A stretch of DNA of 46,179 nt, taken from positions 1 to 46,179 of the forward strand of contig CAMCHP010000016.1 in assembly GCA_945874695.1 (NCBI GenBank), written 5' to 3'. Below the pieces are notes generated by a model, which saw only the letters and a list, made by a program, of their open reading frames with translations, did no database searches and was not told the origin of the DNA. This document shows, piece after piece, positions 181-8,737 of the stretch; position 1 is the stretch's first letter; each line of letters begins with the position of its first letter. The translations under genes and the position numbers were made by a program. This stretch comes from Chryseobacterium gleum. Lineage in GTDB: Bacteria > Bacteroidota > Bacteroidia > Flavobacteriales_D > Sanyastnellaceae.

Positions 181-239
181 GTTAGACTGATAGACTTTAG
201 ACTGATAGACTTTAGACTAGGAGACTTTAGACTTTGGAC
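181..239. repeat. TAGACT-type simple repeat, 5' part of composite repeat copy 1
   Basis: TAGACTGA and TAGACTTTAGACT words are repeated about eight times. The same words reappear at 4243-4272 just before the second hairpin array, so the simple repeat seems to be part of a larger composite element. Confidence 0.75.
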
Positions 240-248
240 GGCAACTAA

Positions 249-610
249 GCAGCGTTCAGTTCACCTCGGAGCGGCGATTCCTTTGTAGTGGTGACAATTT
301 TTTCAAGGCCAAAAAATGTGTTACCCGGTTTTGGTTTCGAGTGAGTGGTAACATTTATTTCAAAGCCAAAAAAAGTGTTACTCGATTTTTGATTTCACGC
401 AGTGGTAACCTTTTTTTTGAGGCCAAAAAAAGTGTTACCTGGTTTTTGGTTTCGAGTGAGAGGTAACCATTTTTTCAAGACCGAAAAAAGTGTTACCCAG
501 TTTTTGATTTCGGGTAGGAGGTAACATTTTTTTCAAAGCTTTTGAAAATGTTACCGCGTGTGATTTCAGCAGTTGGTAAACATTTTAAACGGCACGCGAA
601 AATGTTTACC
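249..610. repeat. Composite repeat copy 1: conserved 40-bp block plus six tandem 57-bp hairpin units
   Basis: A conserved block at 249-287 (GCAGCGTTCAG...CGGAG.GGCGATTCCTTTGTAG) is followed by six units starting near 290, 347, 404, 462, 520 and 575. The period is 55-58 bp. Each unit opens with GGTAAC(A) and closes its arm with (TG)TTACC around a T-rich/A-rich stem and a loop containing GCC. The last unit has GGTAAACA paired with TGTTTACC, so both arms change together. No protein is encoded. The array lies between a type IX substrate gene and the 3' end of a glycosyltransferase gene. Confidence 0.85.
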
Positions 611-2777: not shown

Positions 2778-3905
2778 ATGAGCAAACAAGAGCTGAACCG
2801 TGAAAATGTGATCGCTGCCCTGCAGCATGTCCATGAGCCAGATCTGAAGAAGGATGTCATTGCCCTCAACTTGGTCGATGAATTGAAAGTAGGCGACAAC
2901 CACGTGAGTTTGAAGGTGAAGGTGAGCAACCCTGCCATGCACAGCCGCAAACGCATGGAAGATGCAGTGATTTTCGCGCTCCAACGCCATTTCGGTGATC
3001 AGCTTAAAGTAGATGTCACGGCCATTGCCCTGCCGAAAGACGAGCAAACGGCTGATACACGGCGGGTGCTCCCCGGGGTGAAGCACATCATCGCGGTTGC
3101 GTCAGGCAAGGGCGGCGTAGGCAAATCGACAGTTGCAGCAAATTTGGCTGCAGGCTTGGCTGCGCAAGGCTTCGCGGTAGGTTTGGTTGATGCCGATGTG
3201 TACGGTCCGTCAGCACCGCTCATGTTCGACCTTGTGCATGAAAAGCCCCGCGCGGTTGAAATCGCGGGCAAACAATACATTGAACCGCTGCAAAATTATG
3301 GCGTAAAGGTGTTGTCGATCGGTTTCTTCGCCGATGTTTCACAGGCCATTGTTTGGCGCGGTGCCATGGCCTCCAAGGCACTCAGCCAACTCTTCATGGA
3401 TGCATGGTGGGGCGATCTCGATTACATGATCGTTGACCTTCCACCAGGAACGGGCGACATTCACCTGTCGTTGGTGCAAGCCGTGCCGCTCACCGGTGTG
3501 GTGATTGTATCGACCCCGCAAGAGGTGGCCTTGGCCGATGCCCGCAAGGGGGTTGCCATGTTTCAACTCGACAGCATCAATGTGCCCGTGCTGGGCCTCA
3601 TTGAGAACATGAGTTATTTTTCGCCGCCTGATTTACCCGATCGCAAGTATTATTTGTTCGGACAAGACGGAGCGCGCAACCTCGCCACGCAACTCAACAT
3701 ACCGTTTTTGGGTGAATTGCCCATCGTACAGAGCATTCGCGAGGCGGGCGATGTCGGACGTCCGGCCGTTCTGCAAGAAGGAACCATCCCTGAGGTCGCC
3801 TTCCAGAACATTATCCGTAACTTTGTTAGCGTCGTGCAACAGCGTGTTGAGAATCAACCACCAACCCAAACGGTTGACGTGAAAATGCAATACCCGACTG
3901 CGTAA
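2778..3905 (+). CDS. mrp: Mrp/ApbC (NBP35) iron-sulfur cluster carrier ATPase
   Basis: A 375-aa cytoplasmic P-loop ATPase of the Mrp/MinD family that binds and transfers Fe-S clusters to apoproteins. Residues 1-80 form a MIP18/DUF59 domain (VHEPDLKKDVIALNLV). The ATPase follows with the deviant Walker A GKGGVGKST near residue 105, DADVYGPS, and Walker B MIVDLPPGTGD. A further conserved stretch is GLIENMSYF; the usual CxxC after this stretch is not seen here, because the loop reads FSPPDLPDRKYYLFG. ATG 2778 is chosen over the upstream ATG 2748 because the -7 box ends 4 nt before it and the family start (MSKQELNRENV) fits. The NifU-like gene follows 4 nt after the stop, forming a Fe-S operon. 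Confidence 0.95.
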   Translation: MSKQELNRENVIAALQHVHEPDLKKDVIALNLVDELKVGDNHVSLKVKVSNPAMHSRKRMEDAVIFALQRHFGDQLKVDVTAIALPKDEQTADTRRVLPGVKHIIAVASGKGGVGKSTVAANLAAGLAAQGFAVGLVDADVYGPSAPLMFDLVHEKPRAVEIAGKQYIEPLQNYGVKVLSIGFFADVSQAIVWRGAMASKALSQLFMDAWWGDLDYMIVDLPPGTGDIHLSLVQAVPLTGVVIVSTPQEVALADARKGVAMFQLDSINVPVLGLIENMSYFSPPDLPDRKYYLFGQDGARNLATQLNIPFLGELPIVQSIREAGDVGRPAVLQEGTIPEVAFQNIIRNFVSVVQQRVENQPPTQTVDVKMQYPTA

Positions 3906-3909
3906 GCTC

Positions 3910-4161
3910 ATGAGTGAACGAGACATCATCGAAGAAAAGATCAAGGCATCGCTCGATCAACTGCGCCCGCACCTTCAGTACGACGGCGGCGACATCCGAT
4001 TGCTTGAGATCAGCCCCGAATTTGACGTCCGCGTTGAACTCCTAGGCGCGTGCTCCAATTGCTCAATCAGCGCCACCACCAAGGCGGGCGTACAACGTGC
4101 GATCATGGCGGCTGTACCGCAAGTGCGCACGGTTGAAACCATTTCTGTTCCTGCGTTGTAA
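3910..4161 (+). CDS. NifU-like Fe-S scaffold/carrier (Nfu domain)
   Basis: An 83-aa single-domain NifU C-terminal (Nfu) protein. It has the typical start EEKIKASLDQLRPHLQYDGGDIRLLEI and the cluster-binding C..C in LLGACSNCSISATT, where the two cysteines of a dimer hold a 4Fe-4S cluster. It starts 4 nt after mrp, so the scaffold and the ATPase carrier are made together and probably act in the same Fe-S maturation step. Its TAA stop overlaps the first base of an ACGCGATTTATCGCGT palindromic repeat, so a repeat has landed exactly at the gene end. Confidence 0.95.
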   Translation: MSERDIIEEKIKASLDQLRPHLQYDGGDIRLLEISPEFDVRVELLGACSNCSISATTKAGVQRAIMAAVPQVRTVETISVPAL

Positions 4162-4236
4162 CGCGATTTATCGCGTCTTCGGTATTTATGTCTAGTAGGG
4201 ACGCGATTCATCGCGTCCTCGGCATTTATGCCGGGG
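4161..4236. repeat. Palindromic intergenic repeats (ACGCGATTYATCGCGT and CGGCATTTATGCCG), two tandem copies
   Basis: Two copies of ACGCGATTYATCGCGT lie at 4161-4176 and 4201-4216. Each is followed by a CGG.ATTTATG-type palindrome; the second is a perfect CGGCATTTATGCCG. Related copies occur at about 17862-17935 and 28985-29000. They probably form hairpins in the nifU-like 3' UTR. Confidence 0.8.
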
Positions 4237-4242
4237 GGAGAC

Positions 4243-4526
4243 GTTAGACTTTAGACTGAGAGACTTTAGACGGCCAAAAAGCAGCGTTCAGCTCGCCTCG
4301 GAGAGGCGATTCCTTTGTAGGGGTAACATTTATTTCAACGCCAAAAAAAGTGTTACCCGGTTTTTGATTCGACTGAGCGGTAACATTTATTTCAAGGCCA
4401 AAAAAAGTGTTACCCGGTTTTGACGTTGAGTGAGTGGTAACATTTATTTCAAAGCAAAAAAAGTGTTACCCGATTTTTGATTTCGGTTGGCGGTAAACAT
4501 TTTAAACGCTGCGTGAAATGTTTACC
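4243..4526. repeat. Composite repeat copy 2: TAGACT words, conserved block and four hairpin units
   Basis: TAGACTTTAGACTGA words (4243-4272) are followed by the block GCAGCGTTCAG...GGCGATTCCTTTGTAG (4281-4320) and hairpin units beginning at 4322, 4379, 4436 and 4491. The period is 57, 57 and 55 bp. The order of parts is the same as in copy 1, and the array again ends with the GGTAAACATTTTAAACG/TGTTTACC variant. Confidence 0.85.
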
Positions 4527-4559
4527 CCGTGTTTTGGTTGCGTCGCGTGATGGCAAGGC

Positions 4560-4885
4560 ACACACCCGCCCCAGCGGGGTGAAATCTCGGTAGCCACGGG
4601 TTTCAACCCGTGGATGCGACGCGCGCGCACCTTGAGTGCCGTAGGCACGGCATCTACCTGCTTGGCATTTTTGCCACCCATATCAAAGATTCTATGCTAC
4701 GTGCCTTCTTGCGAGATTAATGAATGACGTTGGTAAACATTTTAAACGGCGCGTAAAGTGTTTACCAGTGGTTTTTTGGTTTTCACTGTAGAGACGCAAT
4801 GCTTTGCGTCTGCTAATAAGAACGGTTGCCCCACTTAATGGCATGGGTAACAATTATTTCAGGGCCAAAAAAGTGTTCCCCATTT
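4560..4885. repeat. Mosaic of short palindromic repeats and single hairpin units
   Basis: This part of the gene-free stretch contains several palindromes. CCACGGGTTTCAACCCGTGG is at 4594-4613 and GTGCCGTAGGCAC at 4636-4648. A lone GGTAAACA/TGTTTACC unit lies at 4732-4766, and AGACGCAA....TTGCGTCT at 4792-4811. A decayed GGTAACA/TGTTCCC unit is at 4846-4880. No coding sequence is evident here; it looks like a landing zone for repeat families. Confidence 0.7.
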
Positions 4886-4913: not shown

Positions 4914-5327
4914 TCAGTCCTTCGACTTCCGTTCAAATTGAATGTTCGATTGCTCATCGTTTAAAACCAGCTCATACAGCTCATCTGATTCAATACATGC
5001 GAGAACCTTTTTATAGAGGTAAGCCTTGTAATTATCATCAATATTCGATGCTCCTAAAGAACCAGTTTTAGGATGGACGAACATTAGAACTAATTTTTCG
5101 TCTTTAAGCAAGAGTAAATAGTATGCTCTAAACCCTCCACTTCCGTCGAGGCGTTTCTTAATGTACGGAACCTCTGAGCTATGATTAAGCCTCGTCCCAT
5201 TGGCGAGTTGTTCGGAGGTCTTTCCGAAAAAATAGGAGATGACCTGCGTCTCTAATCCCTGATAAGATTTTTTTGATTGAAGCTTCTCAAACTCAACTTT
5301 GAAATCTTCCAAACAATAAATCTTCAT
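4914..5327 (-). CDS. Small protein with RelE/ParE-like features (putative toxin)
   Basis: A 137-aa protein with no confident family. The layout is suggestive of a RelE/ParE-like fold: an N-terminal strand and helix (MKIYCLEDFKVEFEKL), a helical segment, then YIKKRLDGSGGFRAYYLLLLKDEKLVLMFVHPKTG, which looks like the basic beta-hairpin core of such toxins. It begins one base after the stop of the 154-aa gene upstream, so the two are translationally coupled. The pair is visibly AT-richer than the flanking genes and sits between hairpin repeat arrays, which suggests acquisition. Another RNA-binding or regulatory role is equally possible; no catalytic residue can be named. Confidence 0.5.
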   Translation of the reverse strand: MKIYCLEDFKVEFEKLQSKKSYQGLETQVISYFFGKTSEQLANGTRLNHSSEVPYIKKRLDGSGGFRAYYLLLLKDEKLVLMFVHPKTGSLGASNIDDNYKAYLYKKVLACIESDELYELVLNDEQSNIQFERKSKD

Positions 5328-5328
5328 T

Positions 5329-5793
5329 TCAGATTAGCGTAAGCTTCTTGGTGGTTTCTTTAAAATCTGGCATTTCAGGGAGAAAGAAAAACACAGACTC
5401 CAAATCTTCAATTGATTCACGTAAATCATCAATTGCGTATTTGAAGTCTTTAATTTCTTGTTTCGCAATACCTTGCTTTGTGAGTGGGGTTATAGCGACA
5501 TATTGACGCACCAATGAACTTCGAAGGTCTTTAGCAGCAGCAATTAAATCATTAAGCACCATTAAACCCTCTTCATCCACATTATTAAACCAAGTCAATT
5601 GCTCCATTCTGGCATTGACATCAACAAGCTTCCCTGTTTTCTCTTGCAGTTTCGACTTGAGCTCAAGAATTGCATCCAAGAATTGATTAACGCGCTCTTC
5701 AATAATGAGCGGAGAACGTTTTTCTTGGTATGAGAAATCACGAACTCTAGAGAACGTGTCCCTAATCTCAGATTTGTATGATAAGCTCTCCAT
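5329..5793 (-). CDS. Hypothetical helical/coiled-coil protein, first gene of a coupled pair
   Basis: A 154-aa soluble protein rich in heptad-like Leu/Ile/Glu/Lys patterns. Residues about 28-60 (IIEERVNQFLDAILELKSKL) and 115-145 (FKYAIDDLRESIEDLESVFF) look like long helices. No signal peptide, membrane segment or HTH motif is visible. TGA is followed after one base by the ATG of the putative toxin gene, so expression is coupled. By position it could be a partner or antitoxin of that protein, but this is inferred only from gene order. The gene belongs to the AT-rich insert between repeats. Confidence 0.6.
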   Translation of the reverse strand: MESLSYKSEIRDTFSRVRDFSYQEKRSPLIIEERVNQFLDAILELKSKLQEKTGKLVDVNARMEQLTWFNNVDEEGLMVLNDLIAAAKDLRSSLVRQYVAITPLTKQGIAKQEIKDFKYAIDDLRESIEDLESVFFFLPEMPDFKETTKKLTLI

Positions 5794-6085
5794 GCAGATT
5801 CAAATGATCAGTGAAGGTACGCAAAAGTTGGCAATCAGAGGTGAACCGAGCCCATCTGCGCTCTCGCTTACCTTCTTAATACGTGCCAAACAAGAAAATG
5901 TTGCCCACACAGGTTTAAACATGAAGTAAGGAGGGTAAACATTCGTTCAAACGTCATAAGCAACCAAACACGCCGAAGTAAAGTGCGCGCAACTTGCGAT
6001 AAGCGCTTCGTAAAGGCATGCGGAACGGGGCAGTCCTCCACGTCTTTAGTCAAACTCAGAACTGCAATTCGTTGTTTACCAAAAA
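5794..6085. other. Intergenic stretch without a recognised gene
   Basis: This is gene-free sequence upstream of the coupled pair. Short open frames on both strands show no family resemblance and overlap repeat remnants. I see no clear promoter box or terminator. Confidence 0.5.
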
Positions 6086-6250
6086 AGCAGTGCTCCATCC
6101 TCCTCGAAGCGGCGTCCCTATGTCCATAAAACGAAAAGATCAACGCATTTCAAATCGGTGGGGGCACTTTTTTCGAGCTTCTGAAAAATGTTACCGCGTG
6201 CAATGCATTGCAGTTGGTAAACATTTTAAAGGTTGCGTGAAGTGTTTACC
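6086..6250. repeat. Composite repeat copy 3, degraded
   Basis: A diverged version of the conserved block (GCAGTGCTCC...GCGGCGTCCCTATGT) near 6086-6122 is followed by a decayed unit (6159-6194, ending TGTTACCGCGTG). The terminal variant GGTAAACATTTTAAAGG...TGTTTACC is at 6216-6250. Unit order matches the 3' end of copy 1. Confidence 0.7.
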
Positions 6251-6355
6251 CCGCGCCGCCGAGCCATAGCCTTCAACACGCGTCCAAACCCCTTCGCCGC
6301 AAAACATTGCACCGCTACTGGTTTTTTCTTAATATTCGGCTTCCAAAACAATACC

Positions 6356-7606
6356 ATGAGAATTTCTTTACTGACTCTTTGCGCTTGCGCGCTCCTCTCG
6401 ACTGCGGCAATTGCCCAATGCGATGGCAACCGTTACTTCAATCAGGTGTTCAACGACTACACCGTAACCTCAGATATACAATACGGTGCAAACCTTGATT
6501 TGAATGGTGGCAACGTCAACCTGCTCCTCGATGTGTATCGCCCGTTCGGCGACACTGAAGTGGCACGACCGCTCGTGATTTTAGTACATGGCGGCTCGTT
6601 CGTGGGCGGCAGCAAAATTGGAGCAGATGTGGTGCCGTTGGCTGCCGACCTCAGCAAAATGGGGTACGTAGTTGCATCAATCAATTACCGCTTGGGCTTG
6701 CCCTTTGCACTCGAACTTGAGCAAGCGGCTTTTCAAGCTGTGATTCGCGGTTACCACGATGCCAAAGCTGCTGTGCGTTTCTTTAGAAAAGATGTGGCCG
6801 AAAACGGCAATTCATACCTCATTGATCCCGACCACATTTACATGGCCGGCGTTTCAGCAGGCGGATTCGTGGCCTTGCACTGCGGATACCTCGATCAAGA
6901 ATCTGAAATCCCAGCTGTGGTTGACCAGTCGCTGCCCGGTTTAGGCGGGGGCTTAGAGGGCACCAGCGGCAACGAAGGCTATTCATCAGCCATTGCGGGC
7001 GTGGTCAACATCGCTGGTGCACTCGGTGATGCCGATTGGATGCAAGCCGGTGACGTGCCCGTTTTGAGCTTCCACGGCGATGAAGACGGCACCGTGCCTT
7101 ACGGTACAGCCATGTTGCAATTGTTCGGCCTCGTTGATATTACGGTGGTTGATGGCAGCGCTAGCATACATGAACGAGCAGATGAAATAGGTGTTACAAA
7201 CTGCTTCGTTCCCCACTATGGAGCCGACCACGTACCCCACGTTGGCAATGCCATGTACTACGATACCACACGAGCCATCACGGCCAATTTCCTCGGCCAT
7301 TTGGTTTGTCCGCAAGAACCGCTCAGCTGCGAATACCGCGAGGTTACGCTCAATACTCCAGAGCAAATTGCACTCGACTTCGAGGTGTACCCAAATCCCG
7401 CGCGTGAAAGCATCACGTTGGCCAATTTGCCCCTCGGCGTAAAGCGCGTGCAGTTGTTCGATTTGCGCGGTCAACGCGTCATCGATCGGCAAACAACCGC
7501 GGTCACTGAAATCTTACAGCTGAGCGACTTTGCGAAAGGTGCATACATGCTGCGCATCATTTCAGGTGCGGTAACTGAAACCCGCCGAATCGTCATCGCA
7601 GACTAA
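6356..7606 (+). CDS. Secreted alpha/beta-hydrolase (carboxylesterase-like) with type IX sorting domain
   Basis: A 416-aa exported esterase. The start at 6356 gives a clean signal peptide (MRISLLTLCACALLSTAAIAQ); an ORF start further upstream would lie inside a repeat. The hydrolase core shows the oxyanion-hole motif LVILVHGGSFVGG and the nucleophile elbow GVSAGG. A probable acid is in FHGDEDGTVPYG and the histidine in HYGADHVPH. The last ~75 residues (FEVYPNPARESITL ... GAYMLRIISG) are a type A sorting domain, so the enzyme is expected to cross the outer membrane through the type IX system. The substrate is unknown; acyl esters of carbohydrates or lipids are typical. It stands alone on the plus strand. 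Confidence 0.9.
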   Translation: MRISLLTLCACALLSTAAIAQCDGNRYFNQVFNDYTVTSDIQYGANLDLNGGNVNLLLDVYRPFGDTEVARPLVILVHGGSFVGGSKIGADVVPLAADLSKMGYVVASINYRLGLPFALELEQAAFQAVIRGYHDAKAAVRFFRKDVAENGNSYLIDPDHIYMAGVSAGGFVALHCGYLDQESEIPAVVDQSLPGLGGGLEGTSGNEGYSSAIAGVVNIAGALGDADWMQAGDVPVLSFHGDEDGTVPYGTAMLQLFGLVDITVVDGSASIHERADEIGVTNCFVPHYGADHVPHVGNAMYYDTTRAITANFLGHLVCPQEPLSCEYREVTLNTPEQIALDFEVYPNPARESITLANLPLGVKRVQLFDLRGQRVIDRQTTAVTEILQLSDFAKGAYMLRIISGAVTETRRIVIAD

Positions 7607-7732: not shown

Positions 7733-8737
7733 ATGATTGAAACAGATATCCTCATCATCGGTGCCGGTCCGGTAGGATTGTTTACGGTATTCGAAGCAGG
7801 ATTGCTGAAGTTGCGTTGCCACCTCATTGATGCGTTGCCACAAGCAGGCGGACAGTGCAGTGAAATTTACCCGAAGAAACCCATCTACGATATTCCGGCT
7901 TTTCCGGAAATCTTAGCAGGCGATTTGATCGACAACCTACTCAAACAGGCCGAGCCGTTTAAACCCGGTTTTACCCTCGGTGAACGCGCTGAATCGATTG
8001 AGAAAACAGCCGATGACAAGTTCATTGTAACCACCAACAAGGGCACAAAACACCTTGCACCGGTGGTTGCCATCGCAGGCGGTCTCGGTTCATTCGAGCC
8101 GCGTAAACCTCCTGTTGAAAACCTTGATCTGTACGAAGACAAAGGGGTGGAGTACTTCATCAAAGACCCCAACTTCTACAAAGGCAAGCGCGTGGTAATT
8201 TCAGGAGGCGGTGATTCAGCCCTCGACTGGACCATCTTCTTGGCTGAAGGTGTTGCCGCCGAAGTTGCCATGGTGCATCGTCGTTCGTCGTTCCGCGGGC
8301 ACCTCGACAGTGTGCAAAAGGTGATGGATATGGCCGCTGCCGGAAAAATCAAACTCTACACCGACGCTGAAATCATGAGCCTTGAGGGCGATGGTAAACT
8401 CGAAGCGGTAAACATCGAAACCCCGCAAGGCATGGTGCGCCATGAGGTCGATCATTGGATGCCGTTGTTTGGCTTGTCGCCAAAACTGGGGCCAATTGCC
8501 GATTGGGGTTTGAATATTTCGAAGAACTCAATCGAGGTTGATACCTTCGATTACAGCACAAACATCCCCGGTATTTACGCGATCGGCGATGTGAATACTT
8601 ACCCGGGAAAACTGAAGCTGATCTTATGCGGTTTCCATGAAGGAACGCTTATGGTGCAGAGTGCTTTCAAACGCATCTATCCCGATAAAAACTACGTATT
8701 GAAGTACACCACGGTCAACGGGGTTAACGGATTCTGA
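7733..8737 (+). CDS. Thioredoxin-reductase-like ferredoxin--NADP+ reductase
   Basis: A 334-aa FAD/NAD(P)-binding flavoprotein of the YumC type. The FAD-binding motif is DILIIGAGPVGLFTVFEAG near residue 4. The flavin contact region is PQAGGQCSEIYPKKPIYDIPAFP, the NADP-binding motif is RVVISGGGDSALDW near residue 160, and the C-terminal FAD motif is GIYAIGDVNTYPGK. The redox CxxC of thioredoxin reductase is absent, as expected for the ferredoxin-reducing branch. The 2Fe-2S ferredoxin gene starts 2 nt after its stop, which strongly supports ferredoxin as the partner. ATG 7733 is used because it places the Rossmann motif at the N-terminus. Confidence 0.92.
   Translation: MIETDILIIGAGPVGLFTVFEAGLLKLRCHLIDALPQAGGQCSEIYPKKPIYDIPAFPEILAGDLIDNLLKQAEPFKPGFTLGERAESIEKTADDKFIVTTNKGTKHLAPVVAIAGGLGSFEPRKPPVENLDLYEDKGVEYFIKDPNFYKGKRVVISGGGDSALDWTIFLAEGVAAEVAMVHRRSSFRGHLDSVQKVMDMAAAGKIKLYTDAEIMSLEGDGKLEAVNIETPQGMVRHEVDHWMPLFGLSPKLGPIADWGLNISKNSIEVDTFDYSTNIPGIYAIGDVNTYPGKLKLILCGFHEGTLMVQSAFKRIYPDKNYVLKYTTVNGVNGF

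Follow-up and report, generated by a model that had tools for sequence, protein, structure and literature searches.

Modular hairpin arrays of BOX-like build, probably non-autonomous interspersed repeats, in a Flavobacteriales genome

The first few hundred positions of the window, by which we mean the whole 46,179-nt stretch of DNA analysed here, hold an array of regularly spaced hairpins, and the question raised by this locus is what such an array is and how it came to lie there. An earlier note, made from the letters alone, had described at 181-610 a composite that encodes no protein, whose hairpin arms seemed to change together, and had left the choice between a non-autonomous mobile element and a structured RNA.

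The arrays of the window

Sequence reading and a repeat finder place the hairpins of this array (copy 1) at starts 290, 347, 404, 462, 520 and 575, with steps of 57, 57, 58, 58 and 55 bp, which confirms the six units and the 55-58 bp step claimed before. All features of the arrays are given on the plus strand. Sequence reading finds 5' of copy 1 a tract of TAGACT words (heptad-like GACTTTA words; 181-240). Such words are found outside the arrays too, e.g. at C56:15477-15514, and in a few relatives; therefore, they are a tract separate from the element. The element proper opens with a 5' block, termed A (247-288; 42 of 50 bp, 93% to copy 2 by sequence comparison), whose GTAG end stands directly before the first hairpin. 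Then come four R units, at 290-325 (the GGTGAC variant typical of first units), 347-382, 404-439 (arm position 7 unpaired, C opposite T) and 462-497, followed by an R' unit (520-555; core CAAAGCTTTTG), R' being the last R unit in seven arrays, and by the terminal hairpin T (GGTAAACA...TGTTTACC; 575-610). The stop of the neighbouring glycosyltransferase-like gene lies 20 bp beyond this last hairpin.

The recurrence of the composite at 4243-4526 (copy 2) and, decayed, at 6082-6250 (copy 3) was likewise borne out, both having the plan of copy 1. Copy 2 is preceded by a GTAG-tagged REP hairpin (4195-4218) and a second TAGACT-word tract (4243-4271). Its block A (4272-4321, including the block of about 40 bp at 4279-4321) folds no better than shuffles, and its three GGTAAC units and GGTAAACA terminal hairpin start at 4322, 4379, 4436 and 4492 (R units at 4322-4357, with the commonest core, 4379-4414 and 4436-4470; T at 4492-4526). 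The copy extends past the limits first given to it, with a 205-bp module M (4527-4731) that holds GCCCC-GGGGC and REP hairpins, among them the GTAG REP GTAGCCACGGGTTTCAACCCGTGG (4590-4613), and that has other copies in contigs C45, C53, C64, C65 and C82; a second T hairpin (4732-4766) closes this module. There follow another GTAG REP (GTAGAGACGCAATGCTTTGCGTCT; 4788-4811), a 5' block C (4813-4845), which has a similar counterpart ahead of the C53 and C110 arrays, and a lone R unit at 4846-4880 whose 3' arm reads GTTCCC. Copy 3 is reduced to a decayed block A (6082-6114), one remaining unit, a decayed R' (6160-6195), and a perfect T hairpin with both arms intact (6216-6250).

Between copies 2 and 3 lie two adjacent minus-strand genes (4914-5793) matching nothing in Pfam, NCBIfam or PADLOC, whose layout suggests a candidate toxin-antitoxin-like pair. 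At 6356-7606, beside the decayed array, stands a lipase-like gene with a secretion-tail domain, inverted with respect to the orthologous locus of a relative (L068).

A repeat family dispersed over one genome

BLAST searches with the element through the draft genome (3.09 Mb in 128 contigs, 97% complete) returned 28 matching places, and the genome contains about 15 R arrays, 48 R units of 35-37 nt and at least 24 T hairpins, the array and copy counts being minima because several arrays sit at contig ends. The pattern GGTAACA-N(10,40)-TGTTACC occurs 29 times versus 2 for its backward control, GGTAAC-N(21,26)-GTTACC 43 times versus 5, and GGTAAACA-N(18,21)-TGTTTACC 24 times versus 0; chance is therefore excluded. 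Further copies had been expected in the genome or in relatives. They abound in the genome itself, where block A alone has 11, and this supports the non-coding, dispersed composite claimed for the locus; from the relatives they are indeed absent. Among 60 relatives, BLAST gave no match to the element at E <= 1e-5; among 395 genomes of the class the three-arm pattern was found in the present genome only; and among 299 genomes of the order the single-unit pattern had at most one match elsewhere. This comparison set includes one genome of the genus, the present one, the nearest named relatives being Flavobacteriales MAGs. A plasmid or phage origin was rejected, blastn of both collections giving no match, and nothing related was found in the literature on the arm heptamers.

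The family follows a modular plan, in which a 5' block (A, B or C) leads into one to six R units, whose starts are 56-59 bp apart within arrays genome-wide, and these into T, the 3' end consisting of R' and T or of T alone. T is often followed by modules of about 200 bp bearing GTAG-type REP hairpins, with further T hairpins between them; T hairpins also close the modules M and M2 (about 200 bp), which in C45 stand in tandem, repeating every 240 bp or so. The same units are found combined with three alternative 5' blocks and with two M modules, R or T hairpins standing at the module junctions that were read. In most copies the GTAG end of block A and the first hairpin are 0-1 nt apart, and in one C82 element block A passes directly into T, the R unit being absent. 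First units are alike between arrays and R' units likewise, which would look as if whole arrays had been copied.

The usual place of an array is behind a gene or between two convergent genes, not in a promoter, and elements often start within a few bases of the stop codon of a gene of the same direction. Their Pfam-classified neighbours are mostly ordinary (a RarA-like ATPase, a cytidine/TadA-like deaminase, a fumarase-like lyase, a response regulator, a methyltransferase). Contig C78 (L051) holds two arrays with GGTAAC/GTTACC arms and largely different cores. The one at 6346-6497 has three units spaced in 58-bp steps and is flanked by an XRE-like gene and by a gene whose match to an Mrr-type nuclease is weak; the other (8305-8465), behind another gene, has four units at steps of about 42 bp. 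In C82, a RhuM-family gene (3625-4308, L044; a match to the PADLOC candidate PDC-S05) is flanked by two composite elements, and lone T hairpins (L163, L164 and L161, in C89, C2 and C83) often have another REP-like palindrome, GTAGGGGCGGAAAATTTTCCGCCC, in their vicinity.

Arms, folds and the readings they bear on

That the arms change together, as the earlier note had it, stands as a difference between the GGTAAC and GGTAAAC classes and falls within either class. Alignment of the units, by which that note proposed to check covariation, gave no pair altered on both sides, whether among 30 distinct R units (shuffled mean 1.0) or among 21 distinct T units (shuffled mean 0.4). Arm position 7 may carry any of the four bases, its partner being almost always T, and is unpaired in 12 of the 30 R units, and the arm columns have an entropy of 0.11 bit versus 0.46-0.83 elsewhere. 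Therefore, what is conserved in the arms is their sequence, unless recent common descent explains their constancy, and GGTAAC versus GGTAAAC is a class difference that goes back to one or a few events and not to compensation occurring repeatedly. Co-change of arms between two repeat classes can thus pass for covariation where 51 distinct aligned hairpins have none.

Folding is where a structured RNA finds its evidence. On the plus strand single units beat their shuffles (z -4.2, -4.6 and -4.0), the whole array folds better on this strand (-115.9 kcal/mol, z -5.4) than on the minus strand (-92.3, z -4.0), and R stems contain 32 G-U cells versus 5 A-C cells; the frequent start close to the stop codon of a same-direction gene agrees with arrays transcribed with the upstream gene, as a 3' UTR, or alone, whose hairpins would act in stability, processing, as a sponge or as an attenuator. 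The units thus fold well, but the covariation side of this option fails by the refuting condition that the earlier note had set: compensatory changes are absent, slightly below the shuffled expectation, and position 7 is often unpaired, so that an RNA is not shown. Moreover, the strand difference may reflect base composition and shared descent, most of the well-read sites are convergent, which makes reading direction weak evidence, and the arrays were not found in relatives. Known RNA families were rejected, since Rfam at gathering scores recognised only a tRNA in the window. We consider this reading quite unlikely. Hardly better placed, and likewise unlikely, is an array of putative GGTAAC/GTTACC half-sites, alternating every 28-30 bp or so, for a regulator, a nucleoid protein or a recombinase acting on double-stranded DNA. 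No other columns are nearly as conserved as the arms, which decay one at a time, without compensation, and which the C78 arrays retain together with a unit length of 35-36 nt, in spite of largely different cores and whether the step is 58 or about 42 bp. As far as sequence comparison goes, this retention points to the arms as a recognised feature. On the other hand, the placement of the arrays away from promoters and the one additional base per arm in the terminal class speak against such binding sites.

The presence of R or T hairpins at module junctions and of accessory genes between elements (the RhuM-family gene of C82 and the pair at 4914-5793) could also be taken for an integron-like or other site-specific array of cassettes, whose modules would be exchanged by recombination at the hairpins. 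This is highly improbable, as the modules have no genes and no integron integrase was found in the genome, the best score against TIGR02249 being 78 bits for a cut-off of 265; the integron is accordingly not supported. The R boxes of attC sites read RYYYAAC/GTTRRRY, and the arms of the element do not fit them. Gene cassettes were rejected as well, given the mostly ordinary nature of the classified neighbours, and CRISPR too, the stretches between units being related to one another and not unique spacers, as had been claimed. Distinctly improbable, in our judgement, is also that some recombinase or transposase yet to be named joins gene-less modules at the alternating arms (at about 28-30 bp), making integron-like mosaics without an integron integrase, in which case the C78 arrays would be products of that machinery too.

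Mobility, the Y1 transposase and known repeat systems

What favours a mobile element is the comparison of orthologous loci. The gene order at copy 1 (glycosyltransferase-like gene, trmB, methyltransferase, mrp, nifU) is conserved in relatives, and in two of them (L068 and L071) the glycosyltransferase-like gene overlaps the convergent gene (2890/2883 and 2834/2824) and the array is absent, whereas in the present genome 455 bp, nearly all of them array, separate these two convergent genes. The non-autonomous mobile element put forward in the earlier note fits this absence from the orthologous junction. The glycosyltransferase-like protein has 310 aa here versus 347-359 aa in four relatives, 37-49 C-terminal residues having been lost, a shortening that could come from a deletion separate from the insertion; as to a target-site duplication, the relatives are too diverged for base-by-base alignment of the junction. 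At the locus of copy 2 the interval between nifU and the lipase-like gene holds another gene in L068, with the lipase-like gene oppositely oriented; this region has undergone rearrangement, and the gene pair at 4914-5793 lies between arrays.

One Y1 transposase gene was detected in the genome, in a REPtron-like locus (L067, contig C123, 2560-3600) where inverted GTAG REPs flank it, GTAGGGATGACATTTATGTCGTCC standing twice on either side in inverted orientation; its protein scores above the IS200 cut-off and below that of the NCBIfam REP-transposase. By k-mer match, 33 nt of its flank (AATCTCGGTAGGGATGACATTTATGTCGTCCGT) recur within the composite at C45:26230-26262, and the GTAG REPs carried by M and M2 have the same 24-nt design as those flanking the Y1 gene. 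The GTAG tag stands 0-2 nt before the hairpin foot in the REPs of the M modules and in the first hairpin after block A. These GTAG ends and the shared REP stretch would fit an action of Y1 on the hairpins, direct action on R or T being what we infer. Against mobility by this route it counts that the transposase is tied to the REP modules rather than to the R and T hairpins, since it is flanked by REPs and not by R/T hairpins, and that most R and T units carry no GTAG.

Even so weighed, we hold it probable that these arrays, which are demonstrably spread over about 15 loci, share modules, occupy intergenic DNA and are absent at the orthologous site in relatives, form a family of interspersed repeats that are small, non-coding, modular and non-autonomous, with a BOX-like build and REP (BIME-like) pieces. 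The elements would have spread as non-autonomous copies, probably via single-stranded hairpin intermediates on which a Y1 transposase (IS200/RAYT type), or a lost relative of it, would have acted; tandem units may have gained or lost copies through slippage or unequal recombination, and whatever copied or joined the modules would have recognised the invariant arms. A host function is unnecessary to explain the data. The 33-nt REP stretch, in linking the repeat to the resident Y1 transposase, makes this spread testable.

Three known systems invite comparison. The GGTAACA iterons of P4-like satellites and other viral contigs share the identical heptamer, in both orientations, but are mostly short-spaced direct repeats with no cores or blocks in common with the present arrays; P4-type iterons were rejected as an identity for the element, the heptamer being common in viral contigs (58 stretches) in other arrangements beside other genes. 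Within those contigs (L103-L160) GGTAACA/TGTTACC clusters recur and look like replication iterons, as in a P4-like example (L108) where the cluster lies beside a large primase/helicase-like gene. GTAG REPs and BIMEs with their Y1 (RAYT) transposases are known families (PMC3733652, PMC6006769), and the composite resembles them in holding 24-nt GTAG-tagged palindromes, with one Y1 gene between inverted copies of such a REP; its R and T hairpins differ in being longer and mostly without the GTAG tag. The closest architectural analogue is BOX of Streptococcus pneumoniae and S. suis, proposed to be a parasitic non-autonomous element, in which a 5' module, variable tandem middle modules and a 3' module form intergenic stem-loops, the same boxB units occurring in S. 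suis between different end modules (PMC3049150). The boxA-boxB(n)-boxC plan is matched by that of block A/B/C, R(n) and T, with or without M modules, a likeness by analogy that is drawn from plan and not from sequence, in a different host phylum. Here, the middle units are individual 36-nt hairpins, each with invariant arms, and REP-bearing modules are attached. An uncultured Flavobacteriales lineage would thereby gain a BOX-like mosaic repeat of its own, known in its general kind and its own in sequence.
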